A stretch of 29,118 nucleotides of DNA, taken from IMG/VR virus record IMGVR_UViG_3300048586_000167, positions 1-29,118 of that record. One strand, given 5' to 3'. Within the stretch, counting starts at the first letter, position 1, and the number at the start of each line of letters is the position of its first letter. This DNA is from a virus. The notes under the pieces were generated by a model. That model was given only the letters and a program-made list of their open reading frames with translations. It ran no database searches and had not been told where the DNA came from. Positions 7,661-24,379 of this stretch are shown piece by piece. A program made the position numbers and the translations under genes.

Positions 7661-7905
7661 AGCCCGCCCTCCGCGACACTGAGGGCGCCATGCTTGGCCA
7701 GTTCGAGCAGACCGATGAGCTGCAGCAGATCGTCATGAAAGCCGAACTCCACCACGCCCTTGCCGCCCGCCATGATGATGATCGCCATGCCCTGCGGATT
7801 GGCGCGCGCCTCTTCCAGCGCCTTTTCCAGCGCCGCCACGACCTCACCCGCCTTGTGATCAGCGCCAGCCTTCAATCCCGTCACATTGCCGCCCACGTCC
7901 ATCAT
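7657..7905 (-). CDS. Small hypothetical phage protein
   Basis: This 82-residue protein overlaps both neighbours by four bases (ATGA upstream, GTGA downstream), which supports translation. It has an amphipathic helix (AGEVVAALEKALEEARA), a hydrophobic beta-like strand (GMAIIIMAGGKGVVEFGF) and a second helix (DLLQLIGLLELAKHGAL), so it looks like a compact alpha/beta fold with a glycine turn. No catalytic motif is visible and no known family is recognised. Its membership in the early operon between two unknowns gives no functional clue. Confidence 0.7.
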   Translation of the reverse strand: MMDVGGNVTGLKAGADHKAGEVVAALEKALEEARANPQGMAIIIMAGGKGVVEFGFHDDLLQLIGLLELAKHGALSVAEGGL

Positions 7906-8495
7906 GCTGCACCCGCCCGTTTCTTGTTGCCTTCATCCACCAGCGCCAACGCCAGCTCTTCATCGCGCAGCCAGCCCGTGAGCCAGTTGCGGTCATCATC
8001 GGTCGCCATCTCGGCCCGGATCTTTTCCTGAATGATCTGCCGCCGCCGATCATGCTCACGCGCCCGCTCACCGATCTCGCGCATCTCGTAAGGGGTCGGC
8101 GGGCGCAGGCGCTGCCGGATGAAGCGGAAGAGATCGACCAGATACCCGCCGGCCACCGCCTTGGGCCCCTCGACCGAGGCAAGCCAGCTGGTCAGCGCCC
8201 GCGACTGCGCAGGCGGCGGCGTCTGAATGCCGCGCGCCAGCTGCATCATGACGATCTCGGAGGGCCATTCATTCGATGCAGCCGTGTCGATCAGCGCATC
8301 GGCCAGCACCTGAAGGTTCTCGACCGACATATAGGCCAGGCGCTCGACCAAATGTTTTTTCCCGGCCTCGAACGCCTCGACGCCCATGCGCCGGGGCCGG
8401 GTCATGCCGGCCGCCTCCAGTCGATCGATCAGATGCAGTCTGACTGCTGCCTTGCCCTCTGCCGGGCCGTTCACGTCTTGCGCTTCGCTTGCCAT
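7902..8495 (-). CDS. Hypothetical phage protein, helical
   Basis: The 197-residue product starts at an ATG with AAAAGGGG seven bases upstream. It is almost entirely helical: VRLHLIDRLEAAGMTRPRRM, a middle with ENLQVLADALIDTAASNEWP, and a charged C-terminus (EIGERAREHDRRRQIIQEKI) that may form a coiled coil. No motif is recognised. It is the first gene after the palindrome and polypurine spacer and is coupled to the next gene by a four-base overlap. A role in phage replication or its control is possible from context only. Confidence 0.75.
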   Translation of the reverse strand: MASEAQDVNGPAEGKAAVRLHLIDRLEAAGMTRPRRMGVEAFEAGKKHLVERLAYMSVENLQVLADALIDTAASNEWPSEIVMMQLARGIQTPPPAQSRALTSWLASVEGPKAVAGGYLVDLFRFIRQRLRPPTPYEMREIGERAREHDRRRQIIQEKIRAEMATDDDRNWLTGWLRDEELALALVDEGNKKRAGAA

Positions 8496-8675
8496 GTCGC
8501 ACCCCTTTTCTCAGCAAGTTCCATCGGATCAGCCAGCACCCCGCCAATTCTGTTACGCGGCGCTAAGTCTTTTCTTCTCTTCTCTTTTCTTTTCTCTTCT
8601 ACGCAGAACAGTTCCATTCTGAGTGGTTTCGTTCCGGAACAGTACCGAACTGTTCCGGAACAGTTTTCGACAGTT
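8496..8675. promoter_or_regulatory. Palindrome cluster plus polypurine tract (candidate origin or operator)
   Basis: This 180-base gap is the only sizeable spacer in the leftward early operon. It contains an 18-base perfect palindrome at 8648-8665 (AACTGTTCC and its mirror). A second GTTCCGGAAC lies 21 bases to the left at 8631-8640, so GGAACAGT/ACTGTTCC can also form an eight-base stem around a five-base loop. More copies of the half-site occur as GAACAGTTCC near 8607 and CGACAGTTT near 8668. Beside it, about 8566-8600, lies a run that is almost purely pyrimidine on this strand and purine on the other. Iterated sites next to a strand-asymmetric, easily melted tract after a replication-like gene suggest an origin or a transcription control site. 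Confidence 0.55.
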
Positions 8676-9311
8676 TCACCCGCGCCGGGCGCCCTTGTCC
8701 GTCCAGCCGGAGCGGACAGCATGTTCAAGCGCCGCCTCATAGTGAGGCTGCTTCCGGTTGCCCTTGCAGTGATCCTTGAGCCAGTCATCCATCCGACTGA
8801 TCAGGACGTCATCGGCAACTGCCGCATCGCAGAGACCGATCTTCTTCAATGCCTCGCGAAGACGCTTGAGGCGCTGGTAGTAGGCCTTGTCTTCCTTCGA
8901 CAGCTCATGCATTTCGCGCCGCTCGAGCACGTCCAGCACCTGTTCAAGCACCACTGGGTGCATCAGCCGCCGCTCGCCGTCCGACAGGCACGGACGCCAG
9001 TTGCGCAGTGGGCCGAACTCCATGTTGCGCAGCTCACGCAGGCGAGAGACCGGCAGCTTGAGCATGTCTGCAAGATCATCGTCGTCATCAGGAAGGGTGC
9101 CGATCGGGCTCTCGTTCTGCGCCAGGTCGAACAGCGCACGCGCCATGCCCTGCACCTCATAGGTGGCCCTGCGGAAGGTCTTCGAACGCAGCCAGCGCAG
9201 ATGCTGCCACTTCACGAAGGAATTGCCATCCAAGCGCACCGTGCGCGGGATCGCGTATTCTTCCAGATCATCGATATCAACCACCACTGGCCGCCGCGCC
9301 GCACTCATCAC
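8676..9311 (-). CDS. Phage protein with replication-type N-terminus
   Basis: The 211-residue product begins at a GTG overlapping the upstream stop (GTGA); the ATG one codon on is equally possible. The N-terminal part (SFVKWQHLRWLRSKTF, then PIGTLPDDDDDLADMLKL) resembles the opening of DUF1376-type and other phage replication-initiation proteins, where a small winged-helix-like domain carries a 'GxLPDDDxxLA' signature. The rest is basic and helical (LSKEDKAYYQRLKRLREALKKIGL). No helicase or primase motif is present, so a DNA-binding initiator or accessory role is more likely than an enzyme. The adjoining palindromes would fit a protein acting at a site next to its own gene. Confidence 0.72.
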   Translation of the reverse strand: MMSAARRPVVVDIDDLEEYAIPRTVRLDGNSFVKWQHLRWLRSKTFRRATYEVQGMARALFDLAQNESPIGTLPDDDDDLADMLKLPVSRLRELRNMEFGPLRNWRPCLSDGERRLMHPVVLEQVLDVLERREMHELSKEDKAYYQRLKRLREALKKIGLCDAAVADDVLISRMDDWLKDHCKGNRKQPHYEAALEHAVRSGWTDKGARRG

Positions 9312-10753
9312 GCCGCCACCCCTCTTTGATTGTTGTTCGATCTGGCCAACCCCAGTTCCGTGATGTCGGCCGAGATCGTCGACGCACTGACGCCAAGCGC
9401 CTCGACCATCTGCTGGAGGGTCGCGCCTTCCGATCGCATCTGCACCACGCGCATTTGGCGCTCTGCCTTGGCATTCTTGCCACCGACCAATCCGAGCGCG
9501 CGAATATCCAAGGTCAGCGTGGAAGAGCTGATGCCCAATGCCGCCCTGATCTCGGCGAGCGTCCTGCCCGCAGAACGCATCTTCGCAACCTCTGCCCGCC
9601 GCCGCTTGATGGCAGCGTCATCCGGCACCCGAAGTCCACCGAGCCGGGCCAGATCCTTGCGCAGGGTGTTTTCCTTGACGCCAAGCGCCGCGAGCATCTC
9701 AGCCCTGCCCATCCCCTCAGCGATGAATTGCCGCAACTTCGCATCACGGGCGGCGATCGTCGCGGCCACCTGCGCCTCGCGGCGGGCACGGGCCAGAACC
9801 ACAGCCCCCTGCGGATCGGCGAACTTGACGCCGCGCGCATGCAGATCGTGCCGAACCGTCCGCGCCGTCATCCCGATCGACGCGGCGATTTCGGCGGTCT
9901 TCAGACCGCGCGCATGCAGGCGCACAACCTGGTCGCGCCGGGTCTCTCTTTCCTCGTGCATCTCGACCATGGTTTGGGATCGCGGCTTGCGCAGTGACCG
10001 CCCATCAACCAGATCCAGCCCCAAGGCATTGGCATCGCGCGCCACCGTTCTGGGCGTCACACCAAGGCGATCCGCGATATCGCGCGTCAGTTGCCCGGCC
10101 TCGATCAGCTTGCACACCTCGGCACGGCGAGCGATTTCCGCTGCCGCGCGTTCCTCGCGCGCGACAACCGCCTTGGCCTTGCGCAGCGACGGCCTTTCCA
10201 GGCGCTTGATCTCAATCCCAAGCTTGGCCGCAACCGCATTCACTGTCTGTCTGGTGAACCCGACCGCCCGCCCGATTTGCTCGGAAGACCACCCAAGGGA
10301 CGCCAGCTCCGCTATCCTCGCGTTTCGGGCGATGATCTCGGGCGGAACGACATAGGGGGTTTTTCGGCGACGGATACCTGCCGGAGGCTTGACCGGTTTC
10401 AGGCCGAGCGCGGCGAGATCATCAGAAACGGTGGTCGGGCACACGTCGAGCCGCCGCGCAATCTCCGACGACCAGACGCCCTCGGCATGCAGCCGCGCGA
10501 CATCGGCGCGGCGTGCATTGCGCGCCTCTGCAGCGCGGGCAGACGCGATATTGCGCCCAAGAATGTAGTGCGCCGCATGCTCGGCGCGCCTTCTGGCCTC
10601 AGCATCGGGGTAGCGCAACTGGTTGATCTTCGGATCCCACACCGGCGCCTGCCACGCGCTCCTGCCCACCGGCAGCACCTGCACGGCTGTATCTGGAACC
10701 GGGCACCCGTAGCGGGCGGCAACCTCAGCGGCGATCTGCTGTTCGCGGGTCAT
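9308..10753 (-). CDS. Protein with seven tandem helix-turn-helix units
   Basis: The 481-residue product is built from seven consecutive HTH units at about residues 80-120, 142-182, 209-249, 271-311, 334-374, 384-423 and 431-471. Each follows the same plan: a first helix (RRAEVAKMRSAG), a second with xxEIAxxLGV, a recognition helix beginning with Ser/Thr (SxxTVxxD) and the ending LxALGL. Examples are SSEIARRLDVCPTTVSDDL and LAEIRAALGISSSTLTLDI. Units 3-5 are joined by Arg/Lys-rich linkers. Single HTHs of this type resemble HTH_38 or resolvase-C domains, but seven in one chain with no catalytic domain is unusual. The N-terminal 70 residues may be a separate small domain. It is coupled to the methyltransferase upstream by ATGA. 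It could coat or bridge DNA at repeated sites, or recognise a long target. Confidence 0.85.
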   Translation of the reverse strand: MTREQQIAAEVAARYGCPVPDTAVQVLPVGRSAWQAPVWDPKINQLRYPDAEARRRAEHAAHYILGRNIASARAAEARNARRADVARLHAEGVWSSEIARRLDVCPTTVSDDLAALGLKPVKPPAGIRRRKTPYVVPPEIIARNARIAELASLGWSSEQIGRAVGFTRQTVNAVAAKLGIEIKRLERPSLRKAKAVVAREERAAAEIARRAEVCKLIEAGQLTRDIADRLGVTPRTVARDANALGLDLVDGRSLRKPRSQTMVEMHEERETRRDQVVRLHARGLKTAEIAASIGMTARTVRHDLHARGVKFADPQGAVVLARARREAQVAATIAARDAKLRQFIAEGMGRAEMLAALGVKENTLRKDLARLGGLRVPDDAAIKRRRAEVAKMRSAGRTLAEIRAALGISSSTLTLDIRALGLVGGKNAKAERQMRVVQMRSEGATLQQMVEALGVSASTISADITELGLARSNNNQRGVAA

Positions 10754-11451
10754 TCCTGCCCCCCAAACAGATCCGCTTGTCTTGCATCAGTGCGGTCCAT
10801 GAAGCGCATCTGCATCGGCACTTCGGTCCAGTCCCGGCGCCAGACAAACCAGGCATTGCGCTGTGGAGGAGAACCCTCGCCGGTGAAGTCGAGCTTCCAG
10901 CGCATGAGGTAGCAGTAAGAGAACGGGTTCCGATCCAGCAGATCACCGAGGCCGTTTGCCTTTGCCGCTGGCCAATCCCACGACAGCAGCAGCGCGAGAT
11001 AGCTCCAGCCTTGCATATCCAATGAGTGGCGAAGCCAACGCCCGTGGCCATCGCGCGCATTGATCAGGTTGTATGGGGGATTGGTGATGATCGCCTGACA
11101 CGGCGATGCGTTGAAACCGAAGAAGTCGCCTATGCTCGAATCCGGGCAGCCGCGATCGACCAGATCACTCGCGAAGCAGGTAAGACCCATAGCGCGAACC
11201 TCGCGCACCAAAGCACCATCACCGCACGCTGGCTCCCAAACCGCACCGCAATCGCGAATTGCCGCACCATCCAACGCAAAAAGCGCGCGGATAGCCTCGG
11301 GCTGGCCAGTTGGATAGAAGTCTTGCGGGCGCCGATCGGCGGCCTCACGGCGGGCCTCTGGCAGAGCCATCAGCAGATCCTGCCGGGCATCTACACGAGA
11401 CGCTGCGCCGGATATCGCCTTGAAGTATGGCTTGGCCGAAGGTGCATTCAT
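10750..11451 (-). CDS. Orphan DNA N6-adenine methyltransferase-like protein
   Basis: The 233-residue product has the SAM-binding motif EPACGDG at residues 73-79 and the catalytic motif TNPPYN at 123-128, the (N/D)PPY motif of amino methyltransferases that modify adenine N6. A DFYPTG segment precedes the SAM motif, as in many phage DNA methyltransferases. The protein is short, with no separate target-recognition domain and no partner restriction gene, so it is an orphan enzyme. In phages these usually protect the DNA against host restriction or mark origin and packaging sites. It is coupled by ATGA overlaps to a DnaA-like gene upstream and the seven-HTH gene downstream. Confidence 0.85.
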   Translation of the reverse strand: MNAPSAKPYFKAISGAASRVDARQDLLMALPEARREAADRRPQDFYPTGQPEAIRALFALDGAAIRDCGAVWEPACGDGALVREVRAMGLTCFASDLVDRGCPDSSIGDFFGFNASPCQAIITNPPYNLINARDGHGRWLRHSLDMQGWSYLALLLSWDWPAAKANGLGDLLDRNPFSYCYLMRWKLDFTGEGSPPQRNAWFVWRRDWTEVPMQMRFMDRTDARQADLFGGQE

Positions 11452-11693
11452 TGGCGCACCGCATGGCAGATCGAACTATGGTTCCAGCCGCCGACCCGCG
11501 CGATTTCGGCCTTGGAGAAGCCAGCCGCATGGGCCGAGGTCCACGCCGCGCGCCGTGCGACGCTGACAGGGCCGGAGCGATCCCGGACGTAGATGTCAGC
11601 CTCAGTCAGTCCATGCCGTGCAGCCACCGTGGCGATGATCGCGCGGATGCTTTGCCGAACACGCGCCCGGACCCGTGTCTGATGCCCGTTCAT
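11448..11693 (-). CDS. Stand-alone DnaA domain IV-like DNA-binding protein
   Basis: This 81-residue protein resembles only the C-terminal DNA-binding domain IV of the replication initiator DnaA. The order of elements matches: a helix ending AARHGLT, a 'DI.VRDRSGPVSVARRAAW' stretch equivalent to the basic loop and helix of domain IV, the HTH segment KAEIARVGGWNHSSICHAVR, and a terminus equivalent to the DnaA signature GG(R)DHTTVLHA. Here Trp-Asn replaces Arg-Asp before His-Ser. The ATPase domain III and helicase-loading domain I are absent. Neighbours are the HD phosphohydrolase and adenine methyltransferase genes, both with four-base overlaps. It could bind DnaA boxes, compete with host DnaA, or serve the phage origin. 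Confidence 0.8.
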   Translation of the reverse strand: MNGHQTRVRARVRQSIRAIIATVAARHGLTEADIYVRDRSGPVSVARRAAWTSAHAAGFSKAEIARVGGWNHSSICHAVRQ

Positions 11694-12214
11694 GCAGCTA
11701 CCCCATGCGAAATGGGGTCGAGCCGCAGCGTCCGTCGCATCAGATCGACCACCGTGCCGCCACAGCCGAGCTTGCTTGCCGCAGTGCTGATCCAGGCACC
11801 AGCCTCGGGCCAGCCATCGCCGTCAAGCAGCTCGGGCCGGTGATGCGCGACATGTACCCACGCCGCCAGACGATCGGCCAGCGACAGCCAGTCCCGCTCT
11901 TCCGCCGTCAGCCAGAAGCCCGCGCCCATTTCCTCGCGCACCTTGGCCTCTTCCTCTGCGTGCAGCGCGGCAACCTCGGGGCGCCGGTCCTTGAACGGTG
12001 CAGGCAGATCGCCGATGACCTCTCCGACATCATGGTGCAGGGCGGCGAAGATCAGTTGCTCGGCCAGTGGCGCCGCGTCCTTGGGCAGCAGCTGCAGCAG
12101 GATCACGGCGACCATCCATTGATGCTCGGCATTTGTCTCGCGGATATGCGCCATGTCAGGGTTTGCGTGCCAGCGAGCCACGCGACCGGCGCGAATGATG
12201 TCGTAAAGGCTCAT
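11690..12214 (-). CDS. HD-domain nucleotidase, YfbR-like
   Basis: The 174-residue protein belongs to the HD superfamily of metal-dependent phosphohydrolases. The metal ligands can be seen: His31 in NAEHQW, the HHDVGE segment around residues 60-65, and a later Asp in SLADRLAAW. The sequence after the HD motif (GDLPAPFK) matches the signature of YfbR, a 5'-deoxynucleotidase acting on dNMPs. In phages such enzymes adjust nucleotide pools or remove competing dNMPs when DNA is modified, but no base-modification genes beyond the methyltransferases are seen here. The chosen ATG has a GGGGTGG site seven bases upstream; a GTG five codons earlier is less likely. Coupled to its upstream neighbour by ATGA. 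Confidence 0.85.
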   Translation of the reverse strand: MSLYDIIRAGRVARWHANPDMAHIRETNAEHQWMVAVILLQLLPKDAAPLAEQLIFAALHHDVGEVIGDLPAPFKDRRPEVAALHAEEEAKVREEMGAGFWLTAEERDWLSLADRLAAWVHVAHHRPELLDGDGWPEAGAWISTAASKLGCGGTVVDLMRRTLRLDPISHGVAA

Positions 12215-13304: not shown

Positions 13305-13517
13305 ATCACGAACGGCACAGGTGTCGCAGGCGTGTTCACCTCGCACCTGACGATTCAGCGATGCCCGCAAATCGGCCTGTGCCTTCGCTGACACCCAAAC
13401 GCGCAAGACCGAGCCATCCGCGAGGTCGAACGACAGGATCGCCACGCCACAACCGCTGCAGGACAACGTCAGGCCGCGCAATTCTGCCGGGATCATATGG
13501 GGCGGGCGAGGTGACAT
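13023..13517 (-). CDS. Small zinc-knuckle protein, 3' half antisense to another gene
   Basis: The ATG is the last base of the Cro-like gene's stop (TGATG) and has AAGGA nine bases upstream, and the frame runs on for 164 codons. The first ~72 residues look real: SCSGCGVA, a beta-rich stretch (ILSFDLADGSVLRVWV), then HACDTCAV, giving a pair of CxxC knuckles. The remaining ~90 residues are exactly antisense to the rightward zinc-ribbon gene, in the frame register where long shadow frames arise (second codon positions opposed). The tail is Arg/Ala-rich and shows no domain. So either the protein really extends, or the expressed product ends by other means. The 3' end overlaps the next gene's start by eight bases, which argues for genuine reading to the end. 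Confidence 0.5.
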   Translation of the reverse strand: MSPRPPHMIPAELRGLTLSCSGCGVAILSFDLADGSVLRVWVSAKAQADLRASLNRQVRGEHACDTCAVRDLAHPVPLVDFPAVSAGPDFVPRAQGAKGASRGFARRSAQAVMAACRAWLSRRGAGQLTPALEFRHPPLECFDTRRQGFQGFPDRHLVEEFENV

Positions 13518-13762
13518 CAGGCGACGTCCTTATGATCGGGCAACGCGCCCGGTTGTTCCGATTGAGTTTCAGGGGATGGCAACCACGAACGCGCCGACAC
13601 GGCACCGCCAGTCGCGTCCTCGATCTTCAAGGCAAGTTCGAGACTGGGCGTCATGGTGCGGGCGATCAGCTTCGAAACGGTTGCCTGCGTCACGCCGACA
13701 CGAAGCGCGAACGCCTCCTGCTTCATCCCGGCTCTGCTAAGGTAGTCTTTCAGATCGCTCAT
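13517..13762 (-). CDS. Cro-like HTH regulator, first gene of the leftward early operon
   Basis: This 81-residue protein carries one HTH (residues ~9-40: SRAGMKQEAFALRVGVTQATVSKLI) typical of small Cro/YdaS-type regulators, followed by an Ala/Pro-rich C-terminus (GAVSARSWLP). It is the first gene behind the leftward promoter, whose -10 box lies only seven bases before the ATG, so its mRNA should be leaderless. No Shine-Dalgarno sequence can be present on such a message. As the first gene of the lytic early operon and divergent from a larger repressor, it fits the role of Cro, shutting off the repressor promoter and later its own. The assignment is from motif plus position. Confidence 0.82.
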   Translation of the reverse strand: MSDLKDYLSRAGMKQEAFALRVGVTQATVSKLIARTMTPSLELALKIEDATGGAVSARSWLPSPETQSEQPGALPDHKDVA

Positions 13763-13769
13763 ATGGCGA

Positions 13770-13798
13770 TTTATGCGCGAGGTGAATATTCACGTCAA
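13770..13798 (-). promoter_or_regulatory. Leftward early promoter with operator palindrome
   Basis: Read leftward there is a TTGACG -35 box, a 17-base spacer and a CATAAA -10 box. The spacer contains a perfect 12-base palindrome, GTGAATATTCAC (13782-13793). The -10 box ends seven bases before the Cro-like ATG, so transcription should begin at or next to the start codon. From the -35 box to the start of the -10 box the sequence matches the rightward promoter at 15681-15709 in inverted orientation, with a single mismatch in about 28 bases. The shared palindrome is therefore the probable repressor operator. Confidence 0.82.
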
Positions 13799-13821
13799 GT
13801 ATATTTATACGCAGTACGATT

Positions 13822-13850
13822 TTGCAGATGCATCACCCTGCGCGGATAAT
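13822..13850 (+). promoter_or_regulatory. Repressor promoter, leaderless
   Basis: The -35 box TTGCAG and -10 box GATAAT are separated by exactly 17 bases, giving a good sigma-70 promoter. The -10 box is followed by six bases and then the repressor ATG. Transcription would begin at the start codon, a leaderless arrangement like lambda cI from PRM. A sequence element ATTTATACGCAGTACGA (from 13803) overlaps its upstream edge and recurs near 15654. This could be a second operator class that lets a regulator act on repressor transcription. Confidence 0.78.
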
Positions 13851-13856
13851 GTCGAA

Positions 13857-14156
13857 ATGCACATCGCCACGCTTCGCCGCCTTCGCGGCCTGACCCAAAC
13901 AGACATAGCCGACATGACGGGGCTAACGCAGCCAACGATCTCACGCGCCGAAAAGGGTGAAGACGGTATCACGCTAGGCACGCTCCGGCTTATTGCGACC
14001 GCCCTTGGCGTCAGCTTGGCTGATCTGGTTGCGGATGACCGGACGAAGGTGGAAACGGAGCTTCTGTCTGCGTTCCGCAGACTGTCTGCGGATCGCCAGC
14101 GAGGATGGCTCGATCTGGCCCGTTCAGTGATCTCAGATCCTCCGCCACCAAGTTGA
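13857..14156 (+). CDS. CI-like immunity repressor (HTH_3)
   Basis: The 99-residue product has an HTH_3 (Cro/CI) domain at its N-terminus (residues ~2-58: ATLRRLRGLTQTDIADMTGLTQPTISRAEKG, ending in LIATALGVSLADLV). A short helical tail (ETELLSAFRRLSADRQRGWLDLARS) follows. There is no LexA/S24 autoprotease domain, so induction would not occur by RecA-aided self-cleavage. The start is the ATG six bases after the -10 box, giving a leaderless mRNA. It is transcribed away from the Cro-like gene across a 94-base divergent operator region. A longer in-frame start upstream would run through the promoter and is rejected. The repressor role is inferred from HTH type, orientation and operators. Confidence 0.82.
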   Translation: MHIATLRRLRGLTQTDIADMTGLTQPTISRAEKGEDGITLGTLRLIATALGVSLADLVADDRTKVETELLSAFRRLSADRQRGWLDLARSVISDPPPPS

Positions 14157-18799: not shown

Positions 18800-18818
18800 T
18801 CGCGCGCGCATGCCTATC

Positions 18819-18840
18819 GACCGGGCATCAAAGCCCGGTC
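18819..18840 (+). promoter_or_regulatory. Spacer hairpin before the ACP gene
   Basis: A perfect eight-base stem GACCGGGC/GCCCGGTC with a six-base loop (ATCAAA) lies between the repeat gene and the acyl carrier protein gene. No T-run follows. It is another of the spacer hairpins with a CGGGC/GCCCG stem core. Confidence 0.6.
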
Positions 18841-18866
18841 ACCACCCCACCTCAGGAACATCCCAA

Positions 18867-19112
18867 ATGCCCGACATCACCACCCGCATCTCTCGCGTCC
18901 TTTGCTCGATCCTCAACGTCGAGCCAGAGCAGATCACCCCCGAGGCGTCAATCATCCAGGACCTTGGTGGCGACAGCCTGGACACGGTCGAAATCGTGAT
19001 GGCCCTCGAGGAAGAGTTCGGGATCGAGATCACCGACGACACCGCCGAGAGCATCCGCACCGTGGGCGATGCCATCACCGCCGTCACCAAGCTGACCAGC
19101 GTCAACGCCTGA
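18867..19112 (+). CDS. Phage-encoded acyl carrier protein
   Basis: The 81-residue protein is a full-length acyl carrier protein. The phosphopantetheine site GGDSLD is intact with Ser37, preceded by IQDLG and followed by TVEIVMALEEEFGIEI, the helix II typical of ACPs. The protein is acidic, as is usual. ACPs carry acyl chains in fatty acid, lipid A or polyketide synthesis, or bind regulatory partners. No acyltransferase, ketosynthase or phosphopantetheinyl transferase is encoded in the visible prophage, so it would use host enzymes. It is not next to fabF, as a host acpP would be, but in a phage operon. The start has AGGA nine bases upstream. A decoy for host ACP-dependent enzymes is an inference. 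Confidence 0.92.
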   Translation: MPDITTRISRVLCSILNVEPEQITPEASIIQDLGGDSLDTVEIVMALEEEFGIEITDDTAESIRTVGDAITAVTKLTSVNA

Positions 19113-20794: not shown

Positions 20795-21092
20795 CCTCCA
20801 CCCGGATCACATGGCCCTGCTGTCTCTGGCCCGCTGCGCGATAAATGCTGAGGCCGGGCCCCTTTGGAAGAAGGATGTGGAAGAGGCCGTTACCATCTAC
20901 GGCGCCGCCTGTGATGCGCTCTGGAACGAATTGCGCCGCCAGCTGGACGTTCAGGACGGCAAGGTGCCGGTGCTGGAACATCCCAGCGTGCAACAGAAGG
21001 CCCTAGCCCAGCGGATGCGCGGCACGATCATCACCGCTTGCCGAAGCGCGATCGAGGAAGCCCTCTCCAATCTGGAATATGAGCATGAGTGA
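20787..21092 (+). CDS. Hypothetical helical protein (101 aa)
   Basis: It starts at a GTG inside the previous gene's end. The 101-residue product is helical throughout (DHMALLSLARCAINAEAG, CDALWNELRRQLDVQ, RMRGTIITACRSAIEEALS) with an acidic tail. No known domain. It overlaps the Gp37/Gp68 gene start by eight bases, with a ribosome site for that gene inside its end. Confidence 0.65.
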   Translation: MTDLHPDHMALLSLARCAINAEAGPLWKKDVEEAVTIYGAACDALWNELRRQLDVQDGKVPVLEHPSVQQKALAQRMRGTIITACRSAIEEALSNLEYEHE

Positions 21093-22158
21093 CGCCACCA
21101 CCATCGAATGGACCGACGCGACCTGGAACCCGATCACGGGCTGCACCATTGTCGATGCGGGCTGCACCAACTGCTATGCCATGGCGCTGGCAGGGTCGCG
21201 GCTGCGCAATCACCCCAGCCGGGCGGGCCTGACCCGCGTAACAGGCGGGCGGGCAAAATGGACAGGCGAGGTCAGGCTCAACGAACAATGGCTCGACCAG
21301 CCGCTGAAATGGACCCGCCCGCGCATGATCTTTGTCTGCGCCCATGGCGATCTGTTCCACGAGTCTGTGCCAGATGAATGGATTGACCGGGTGTTCGCCA
21401 TCATGGCGCTGGCCCCGCAGCATACCTTTCAGGTGCTGACCAAGCGGCCAGACCGGGCGCGGGAATACCTTGGCGCGAATCCGGGCATCCGTATCAGGAC
21501 GCAAATGGCCAGCATCGGCGGGCCGCTGCCTGTCATCGAAATGGACTGGCCTCTGCCGAACGTCTGGCTTGGCACCAGCGCCTCGGATCAGGCCAGCGCA
21601 GACAAGCGCATCCCTGAATTGCTGGCCTGCCCGGCAGCGGTGCGCTTTGTGTCGCTGGAACCACTGCTAGGGCCGATTGATCTGACGCGGGTCGGCACCA
21701 TCGACAGTGTGCGGTCAGCATTTCCGGCTCTGGTTCGACGCCTTGACCAGCACATGCGCCCTCACACCATCAATGGCGCGCAAATTGAGGCGCTTGGTAG
21801 CCAGTTTCAGGCAACCACCTATTACCAAACACCAGACCACATGGGGGGCTTCGAGGTTGGCTCACGCTATTACCCCCGCCTCGACTGGGTGATCGTCGGC
21901 GGCGAGTCTGGCACCCATGCCCGTCCTATGCACCCTGACTGGCCGCGCGGTGTGCGCGATCAGTGCTTGGCGGCAGGCGTGGCGTTCTTCTTCAAGCAAT
22001 GGGGGGAGTGGGAGGCGGATCAGATCGGCCCAGAGGATACTCGGTCAATCAGCCATCCGCCCGGTCATGTCATTTTTCGCAAGGTTGGCAAGAAACACAA
22101 CGGCCGCCGTCTGGACGGCCGCACATGGGATCAGATGCCGGGGGTGAACCATGTTTGA
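21085..22158 (+). CDS. Gp37/Gp68 (DUF5131) phage protein, candidate Fe-S enzyme
   Basis: The 357-residue product belongs to the phage Gp37/Gp68 family. Its opening, IEWTDATWNPITGC, is the family signature and leads into three cysteines spaced C-x6-C-x2-C (Cys20, Cys27, Cys30; CTIVDAGCTNCYA). This triplet resembles [4Fe-4S] sites of radical-SAM-like enzymes, with a different first spacing. Further family blocks are MIFVCAHGDLFHESVPDEW, TFQVLTKRPDRA, NVWLGTSAS, RFVSLEPLLG and WVIVGGESG. A DNA/RNA-modifying or SAM-dependent radical role has been considered plausible but is not established. The ATG with GGAA eight bases upstream is taken as start. It overlaps the C5 methyltransferase by eight bases. 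Confidence 0.88.
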   Translation: MSDATTIEWTDATWNPITGCTIVDAGCTNCYAMALAGSRLRNHPSRAGLTRVTGGRAKWTGEVRLNEQWLDQPLKWTRPRMIFVCAHGDLFHESVPDEWIDRVFAIMALAPQHTFQVLTKRPDRAREYLGANPGIRIRTQMASIGGPLPVIEMDWPLPNVWLGTSASDQASADKRIPELLACPAAVRFVSLEPLLGPIDLTRVGTIDSVRSAFPALVRRLDQHMRPHTINGAQIEALGSQFQATTYYQTPDHMGGFEVGSRYYPRLDWVIVGGESGTHARPMHPDWPRGVRDQCLAAGVAFFFKQWGEWEADQIGPEDTRSISHPPGHVIFRKVGKKHNGRRLDGRTWDQMPGVNHV

Positions 22159-24379
22159 CAGCCTGACCCTTTTCCCGATGCCCGTCGCACCGGTTGCGCC
22201 GATCGATCCGCGCCCGCTGATCGTGGACAGCTTTGCCGGCGGCGGCGGGGCCTCGACCGGGATCGAACTCGCGCTTGGCCGTAGCCCGGACATCGCCATC
22301 AACCACAGCGAATCCGCGCTTGCCCTGCATGCTGCCAATCATCCGGAGACGCTGCACCTATCGGAGAACGTCTATCGGGTTGACCCCCTGCACCACATGC
22401 ACGGACGGCACATCGGCCTGATGTGGTTCAGCCCGGATTGCAAGCATTTCAGCAAGGCCAAGGGCGGCGCGCCGGTGAAGCGCAACATCCGCGATCTGGC
22501 TTGGATCATTCCCGGCTGGATCGAGCGCATCCAGAAATCCGGTGGTCGCGTCGACGTGGTGCTTCTGGAGAACGTCGAAGAGTTCAGGACATGGGGACCG
22601 TTGATCGAAACCGAGAAGGGCCTGATGCCGGATCCGACCCGCACCGGCGAGACGTTCCAGGCATGGTGCAAGGCCCTGCGCAAACTGGGCGGCAAGATCG
22701 AGATGCGCGAGCTGCGCGCCTGTGACTATGGCGCGCCGACGATCCGCAAGCGCCTGTTAGTGGTGGTGCGCTTCGACAAGCAGCGCATCGTCTGGCCAAA
22801 GCCCACCCATGGCGCCCCGGATTCGCCCGAGGTTCGCGCGGGCAAGCTGCTGCCATGGCGCACTGCGGCAGAGTGCATCGACTGGTCACTTCCCTGCCCC
22901 TCGATCTTCGACACCGCGCCACAGATCATGGCCAAGCATGGCCTGCGCGCGCAGCGGCCACTGGCGGACAACACGCTTGCCCGGGTGGCACGCGGCATGA
23001 AGCGCTATGTGCTGGAAGCTGATCGGCCGTTCATCGTGAACCTGACCCACGGCGGGCGCCTCGAGGATGCGGCGGAACCCTTCCGGACCATCACGGCGGC
23101 GCACCGCGGCGAGAAGGCGGTGGTCGTGCCCAGCATCGTCGGATGTGGCGGCAGGGCCGGTCAGAGCCGCCCGCGCGGCGGGGATGAACCCTTCGCCACC
23201 GTAACGGCCAAGGCCGATGCCTGCATGGTCGCGGCCAGCATTACCCGGTTCAACGGCGGCGCCACCGGCGCGGATCTTCGCGACCCCATGCCCACGGTGA
23301 CCGCGAACAGCTGGATCAAGAAGCCGGGCGGCGCGATGCCCCTTGGTCTGCTGACCCCTTATCTGGCCAGCATCGCCCATGGCTACAGCGGCGGGCGGCG
23401 GGAATACCCGCTCACCGATCCGCTGGGCACTGTGACGGTGGGGGGCATCCAGCACGCGGTTCTTGCGCCATTTCTGGCAACCATGCGTAACAGCCAGAAG
23501 CCTTGGCAGGGCGCCGACAAACCGACACACACCGTCACCGCCGGTGGCGCGGGGCTGACACTCATCGCCCCGGTCCTGACCTATGCCCAGCAGGGCGGCA
23601 GCAACCGGCCCGCGACCGATCCGCATCACACGATCTGCGCCAGCCGCAAGGATCAGAACAGCATGATCGCCGCGACGATGGTCCACATCGGCAACGGTGA
23701 ACGCTCAGGCCAGCGCCCACGCGCGCTCGACATCGAGGCGCCCCTGAATACCGTGGTGGCAAGCGGCGTGAAGCAATACCCGGTTGCGGCCTTCCTCGCC
23801 CAGCAGAACGGCGGCCCCCGCATGGAAGGGCACAGCGGACGCGATGCGCTCGAGCCGATGAGCACCGTGACCGGAAGTGGCAGCCATCAGACACCGGTTG
23901 CAGCCTTCTTTGCCAAATACTACGGCACCGGCGACGGCGCGCGGTCAGACGAGCCTTGCCACACGATCACGGTCAAGGATCGCATGGGGCACATCCAGGC
24001 CGATCTGGCCGCCCCTCCTTTCGGTCCCGAGCATCACGACCGGGCCCGCGAGGTAGCGGAGTTCCTGCGCGCCCATGGCGCATGGGATGGTGGCGAGTAT
24101 GTCACCCTCTCGATCGACGGGCAGGATTTCGTGGTGGTCGATATCGGCATGCGGATGCTGACACCGCGCGAGCTGTTCAACGCCCAAGGCTTCCCGCCTG
24201 ACTATGTGATCGAAGGTGTCTGGACGGGCACCGAGACCGATCACCCGAAATGGAACCCATTCCCCGGCCACGTCCAGGTGAGTTGCTGTGGCAACAGTGT
24301 TTGCCCGCCGCTGGCCGAGGCCTTGGTCCGAGCCAACTGTGGCCATCTGGCCGTCGAACAGATCAGAGGTGCAGCATGA
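22151..24379 (+). CDS. C5 cytosine DNA methyltransferase with nine-repeat target region
   Basis: The 742-residue product has the ordered C5 methyltransferase motifs: DSFAGGGGAS (I, residues 26-35), the catalytic loop FSPDCKHFSKAKGG (IV, Cys97 in PDC in place of the usual PPC), LLENVEEF (VI), TIRKRLLVVV (VIII) and C-terminal LTPRELFNAQGF and GNSVCPP (IX/X). The PDC variant is known from phage enzymes. Between motifs VIII and IX the target-recognition region has nine copies of a short repeat, (D/E)xPxxT(V/I)T, with prolines at residues 310, 347, 379, 424, 458, 491, 531, 569 and 602, about 37 residues apart. At least one copy is degraded (HTICA). It is longer than typical enzymes. It probably protects phage DNA from host restriction and may have several target sites. 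Confidence 0.92.
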   Translation: MFDSLTLFPMPVAPVAPIDPRPLIVDSFAGGGGASTGIELALGRSPDIAINHSESALALHAANHPETLHLSENVYRVDPLHHMHGRHIGLMWFSPDCKHFSKAKGGAPVKRNIRDLAWIIPGWIERIQKSGGRVDVVLLENVEEFRTWGPLIETEKGLMPDPTRTGETFQAWCKALRKLGGKIEMRELRACDYGAPTIRKRLLVVVRFDKQRIVWPKPTHGAPDSPEVRAGKLLPWRTAAECIDWSLPCPSIFDTAPQIMAKHGLRAQRPLADNTLARVARGMKRYVLEADRPFIVNLTHGGRLEDAAEPFRTITAAHRGEKAVVVPSIVGCGGRAGQSRPRGGDEPFATVTAKADACMVAASITRFNGGATGADLRDPMPTVTANSWIKKPGGAMPLGLLTPYLASIAHGYSGGRREYPLTDPLGTVTVGGIQHAVLAPFLATMRNSQKPWQGADKPTHTVTAGGAGLTLIAPVLTYAQQGGSNRPATDPHHTICASRKDQNSMIAATMVHIGNGERSGQRPRALDIEAPLNTVVASGVKQYPVAAFLAQQNGGPRMEGHSGRDALEPMSTVTGSGSHQTPVAAFFAKYYGTGDGARSDEPCHTITVKDRMGHIQADLAAPPFGPEHHDRAREVAEFLRAHGAWDGGEYVTLSIDGQDFVVVDIGMRMLTPRELFNAQGFPPDYVIEGVWTGTETDHPKWNPFPGHVQVSCCGNSVCPPLAEALVRANCGHLAVEQIRGAA

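Follow-up and report, generated by a model that had tools for sequence, protein, structure and literature searches.

A phage-encoded stand-alone DnaA domain IV and its candidate role as an accessory transcription regulator

Domain IV of DnaA serves as a transcription factor module in two proteins, GafY and GafA, the drivers of alphaproteobacterial gene transfer agents, which derive from phages. GafY of Caulobacter crescentus (earlier HdaB; CCNA_01111) is a homologue of DnaA domain IV; ChIP-seq showed it at promoters and, together with GafZ, it activates the gene transfer agent genes. In the authors' proposal, oriC-based replication is not under its control (PMC9632790). GafA of Rhodobacter capsulatus, from the Rhodobacterales, carries a DnaA-IV-like HTH at its N-terminus for promoter activation (PMC9638019). 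The domain is also reused outside DnaA in the TnpA-REP transposases, where a C-terminal Bac_DnaA_C is fused to a HuH (Y1) transposase (PMC6006769). Stand-alone forms of about 79-200 aa are represented by the phage 'DnaA C-terminal' proteins of BFVD/UniProt and by phrog_27829. These widespread phage proteins are usually named as if they were meant for replication; in the literature we found no test of that role and no tested function of a stand-alone DnaA-IV protein in a phage.

The window analyzed here, the whole of a 29,118-nt IMG/VR virus record, encodes a protein of this stand-alone kind. Like GafY, it is a small, alphaproteobacterial DnaA-IV protein tied to a phage-like element (PMC9632790); GafY, however, is encoded by the host beside GafZ (DUF6456), whereas the window phage has no DUF6456, and the recognition helix reads HPST in the GafY-type protein of locus L137 and NHSS in the window protein. 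GafA, a fusion, has about 390 aa as compared with the 81 aa of the window protein, and in the GafA homologue recovered here the domain match was confined to the HTH half. The window protein has fold and profile in common with E. coli DnaA domain IV (1j1v), but lacks domains I-III. Neither the window nor any of eight further records of DnaA-IV phages yielded GafZ, and the candidates located before the terminase gave no Pfam match. As DUF6456 is missing, we do not claim membership of a GafY-GafZ system, and the proposal is that the protein may work like GafY.

Family, fold and operon of the DnaA-IV gene

The gene lies at positions 11448-11693 on the minus strand and is an intact ORF, from ATG to TGA, coding for 81 aa. 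Pfam searches returned Bac_DnaA_C (PF08299) with an E value of 6.5e-8 and 32.9 bits (cut-off 31.5); protein residues 17-81 aligned with positions 2-68 of the 69-position profile, i.e. with the whole domain, and the runner-up family reached an E value of 0.029, leaving Bac_DnaA_C as the only significant match. The NCBIfam DnaA model TIGR00362 scored 20.4 bits (cut-off 343.9) and was covered only in its C-terminal part, profile positions 345-415; the AAA+ domain III and the N-terminal helicase-loading domain of the DnaA initiator are absent. A profile of the window protein and nine phage relatives (A5), all ten of which match Bac_DnaA_C, retrieved E. coli DnaA domain IV on a DnaA box (PDB 1j1v) with an E value of 5.3e-13, followed by five more DnaA structures (3pvp, 2hcb, 1l8q, 8btg and 2z4r). 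The AlphaFold model of the window protein showed five helices with a pLDDT of 88.5; DnaA took all ten top places among its fold matches in the PDB, 1j1v and 3pvp having a probability of 1.00. The family phrog_27829, named 'DnaA-like replication initiation protein', matched the window protein weakly (E 0.048) and nine of the ten A5 members at E values up to 1, the best being 4e-5. Judged by profile and predicted fold, the protein was confirmed as a genuine DnaA domain IV and nothing else. The initial annotation of a phage-encoded, stand-alone DnaA domain IV with an HTH and a final 'GG..HS...HA' signature was thus borne out, including its coordinates; the C-terminal end reads GGWNHSSICHA.

The coupling to a nucleotidase and a methyltransferase gene that had been pointed out earlier is translational and takes the form of ATGA overlaps on both sides, between the HD stop and the DnaA-IV start and between the DnaA-IV stop and the methyltransferase start. 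The early operon, all on the minus strand, begins with the HD-domain 5'-deoxynucleotidase-like gene (11690-12214; YfbR-like PF12917, E 3.6e-8, above cut-off) and continues after the DnaA-IV gene with a DNA methyltransferase (10750-11451; phrog_799, E 6.5e-42), which is of the N6-adenine type by its NPPY motif only. The next gene codes for a protein of 481 aa that contains about six HTH repeats (9308-10753; HTH_23 in six stretches, E 2e-27) and is conserved in the nearest relative, L142, with 95% DNA identity. It is followed by a putative replication (rep) protein of the DUF1376/YdaU-like type (8676-9308; phrog_22470 'replication protein', 6.5e-7; alignment A3), whose relatives in L142 and L134 match DUF1376 below the family cut-off, and by a putative phage origin with iterons (8567-8664). 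Directly behind the origin, the 'p23-like' gene (7902-8495), homologous to p23 of Paracoccus phage Psul1, marks the rep-origin cassette.

Upstream of the operon, an HTH_3 (XRE) regulator (13517-13762, minus strand; PF01381, E 1.3e-9) and a divergent phage repressor-like regulator (13773-14156, plus strand; PHROG transcriptional regulator/repressor matches, best E 1e-12) form a pair of divergent repressor-type genes near 13.5-14.1 kb. An integrase was located at 26.3 kb, and the minus strand carries genes for a portal, a gpA-type terminase and a Nu1-like protein. Since relatives of the methyltransferase were found in Paracoccus, Gemmobacter, Defluviimonas and other Rhodobacteraceae, the host of the phage very likely belongs to this family. 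Comparison of the DnaA-IV gene with that of L142 returned a dN/dS of 0.15, and in another DnaA-IV subfamily (L217-L230) the pooled pN/pS was 0.32; the gene is under purifying selection.

Recognition residues and possible action at promoters

In E. coli DnaA, the TTA part of the box is contacted by R399 in the minor groove, the TnCACA part by the recognition helix; the substitutions R399A and T435M impair box binding, and recognition is therefore sensitive to changes (PMC5742627). Alignment with E. coli DnaA placed the recognition-helix part of the window protein, residues GGWNHSSICHAV, opposite GGRDHTTVLHAC (11457-11492, minus strand). The HTH is kept, and R39, R47 and H72 of the window protein correspond to R399, R407 and H434 of DnaA, so that the protein should read a DnaA-box-related site, which the alignment makes a plausible target. 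Residues D433, T435, T436 and R432 are changed (D433N, T435S, T436S, R432W), the recognition helix of host DnaA being DHTT, and arginines are lost by R398D, R401G and R405V, with fewer basic residues in the loop; D433N and the loss of backbone arginines point to a specificity that is changed or weakened. A sample of 23 non-DnaA proteins with the domain included two GafY-like and a few larger proteins; R407 and S/T at position 436 occurred in all 23, R399 in 19, and D433 and H434 were each kept in 17. H434 is absent from the two GafY-like proteins.

As the protein has no ATPase, oligomerization or helicase-loading part, DnaA-IV alone could not open an origin, and an accessory gene-control protein is more likely than a replication starter. 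We tentatively favor, with a probability of about 0.45, an accessory transcription regulator working like GafY or the N-terminus of GafA, because these proteins use the module on promoters and gene transfer agents are phage-like. According to this proposal, the small basic protein would be an early-operon product of a lambda-like Rhodobacteraceae prophage and would bind promoter sites, tuning the transcription of phage (or host) genes in a role that would be optional, accessory to the phage. DNA binding, target and regulatory role are here what we infer. The missing GafZ speaks against such a regulator, as does a poorly resolved domain tree in which the protein stood apart from GafY, and the position of the gene upstream of rep, or beside a DUF1376 gene, fits replication equally well. 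Given that the DnaA-IV module acts as a transcription factor in GafY and GafA, their regulator may have come from phages of this sort.

A more doubtful possibility is that the protein competes with host DnaA. Lacking the AAA+ functions, it would occupy boxes at oriC or in promoters regulated by DnaA, and would thereby restrain host replication or reprogram the DnaA regulon during phage development. The core base-contact residues are indeed largely kept, and most domain proteins retain D433 and H434; phages are known to target DnaA by other means, as with YfdR (PMC4776307), and an effect of HdaB overexpression on replication initiation is reported in the title of Frandi and Collier 2020 (via PMC7561715) and in PMC9632790. 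The D433N, R398D, R401G and R405V changes of the window protein argue against competition for the same boxes, given the sensitivity of recognition (PMC5742627).

Rep-origin cassettes and DnaA boxes

Action at DnaA boxes of the phage, as first suggested, found no support in the window, where 18 box-like sites were counted as compared with 14.4 +/- 4.0 by shuffling, with no enrichment and no perfect TTATCCACA. The phage origin itself has no box; it consists of ACTGTTCCGGAAC(AGT) iterons at 8664-8648, 8643-8631 and 8615-8606 with a purine-rich tract (8600-8567) next to them. Relatives likewise have arrayed iterons and a purine-rich stretch behind rep, with different iteron words, and the isolated Paracoccus phage vB_PsuS_Psul1 has the rep-origin-p23 layout of the window, the DnaA-IV gene being absent.

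We then considered the DUF1376-like rep genes with iteron origins in Rhodobacteraceae prophages as a set (window 8567-8664, L127, L131, L132, L134, L141, L142, L145, L177-L267, L277-L330 and L362-L374). In the first set, the perfect box TTATCCACA occurred in 29 of 58 rep clusters as compared with 0.03 in shuffled origins; all 29 boxes had one orientation and 26 of them lay 22-45 bp before p23. After enlargement, the perfect host DnaA box was present, in uniform orientation and mostly 22-45 bp ahead of the following gene, at 39 of 87 origins, counted as clusters at 85% rep identity that are not phylogenetically independent, and the phage type therefore often offers host DnaA a site. With a box of fixed orientation in nearly half of the clusters, whether this phage type depends on host DnaA becomes a directly testable question.

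These boxes imply that DnaA-type recognition probably matters at such origins and, with the location of the gene in the replication module upstream of rep, they are the argument for a replication accessory that would aid initiation by binding at the phage origin or by linking host DnaA to phage rep. We consider this role possible but less likely than that of a regulator. The window's own origin is box-free, boxed origins belong mostly to phages without the DnaA-IV gene, the identical rep/origin type occurs without this gene, and the gene occurs with unrelated rep and iterons. Between the window and L142, DnaA-IV is 91% and p23 98% identical and the multi-HTH gene is common to both, but rep is only 28% identical and the iterons differ; rep and origin were therefore swapped as a cassette without DnaA-IV. 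Iteron binding by the DnaA-IV protein was rejected on account of this swap. Within single rep clusters the gene is patchy, being present in 6/15 records of one cluster (85% identity) and in 8/10 of another, and it is thus an accessory gene, dispensable to the rep-origin and independent of the phage iterons. The origin-binding adaptor proposed in the initial annotation found no support, with no box at the origin, patchy occurrence within one rep/origin type and near-identical copies beside unrelated cassettes.

In a scan covering the rep strand only, about 2.5-6 kb upstream, DnaA-IV lay upstream of rep in the rep-origin cassettes holding it; in L132 it overlaps the rep start by ATGA, and in L314 and L324 it is directly adjacent to rep. 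One genome, G090 (C4 and C5), contained four copies of the p23 cassette, with DnaA-IV beside the C5:911930 copy only.

Loss of the origin box upon gain of DnaA-IV was suggestive in the first sample, where 2/9 clusters with DnaA-IV were boxed vs 27/49 without it (one-sided p 0.07), and in two rep clades picked after seeing the tree (2/7 with DnaA-IV vs 10/11). It failed in the enlarged sample, with boxes in 3/12 DnaA-IV clusters and 36/75 others (one-sided p 0.12), the new clusters alone giving 0/2 and 10/29 respectively, and at this p value we claim no association between box and DnaA-IV. The lack of significance also weakens competition with host DnaA, as a box-free origin would have been the self-protective arrangement. 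It is improbable that some phages gained an ATPase-free DnaA-IV blocking or replacing DnaA at boxes while their own origin turned box-free, so that host initiation would be restrained and phage initiation spared. A functionless remnant of a captured dnaA gene, to which long branches and diverse sequences might point, is hardly credible because of the dN/dS of 0.15, and the intact ORF, the two ATGA overlaps and the recurrence of the gene also contradict it.

Recurrence in genomes and phages

A Bac_DnaA_C match besides dnaA was detected in 14 of 248 genomes of the host family and in 5 of the 12 genomes that had been selected by their methyltransferase. Some of these extra matches are not phage genes, as at L137, which is a GafY-GafZ pair (DUF6456 E 1e-40). 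Many small DnaA-IV genes adjoin phage replication-type genes, recognized partly by reading the proteins (L124, L125, L127, L131, L132, L134 and L138-L142), and in Rhizobium phage RHph_N28_2 a DUF1376 gene is followed by an annotated DnaA-like gene (EVB88_078). The best 50 predicted viral structures all matched the fold with a probability of 1.00, most of them being named 'DnaA C-terminal'. By tblastn, the window protein gave no match among named phages and plasmids, and a relative used as query returned 18 records, part of them annotated as complete dnaA genes. The domain tree, built to trace origin and kinship with GafY, was poorly resolved, and the window protein did not group with GafY in it. 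By sequence, the stand-alone phage DnaA-IV is a kind already known to databases and widespread in phages, to which the present analysis adds its recurrence, dispensability and iteron independence, and the DnaA-box result for the rep-origin family.

Some further genes were observed in these records. The DnaA-IV phage L141, which also carries the methyltransferase, encodes a GcrA-like HTH protein (8093-8434, minus strand; PF07750, E 5e-12), and its early operon thus holds several cell-cycle-regulator-like genes. In L131, a NusG-like protein (9506-10171; PF02357, E 1.6e-8) precedes the terminase region and might be a late antiterminator. On the plus strand of the window, a short protein (18810-19112) resembles acyl carrier protein by eye, with a DLGGDSLDTV motif, and a large C5 cytosine methyltransferase (PF00145) adjoins a DUF5131 gene (22151-24379 and 21079-22158, respectively).
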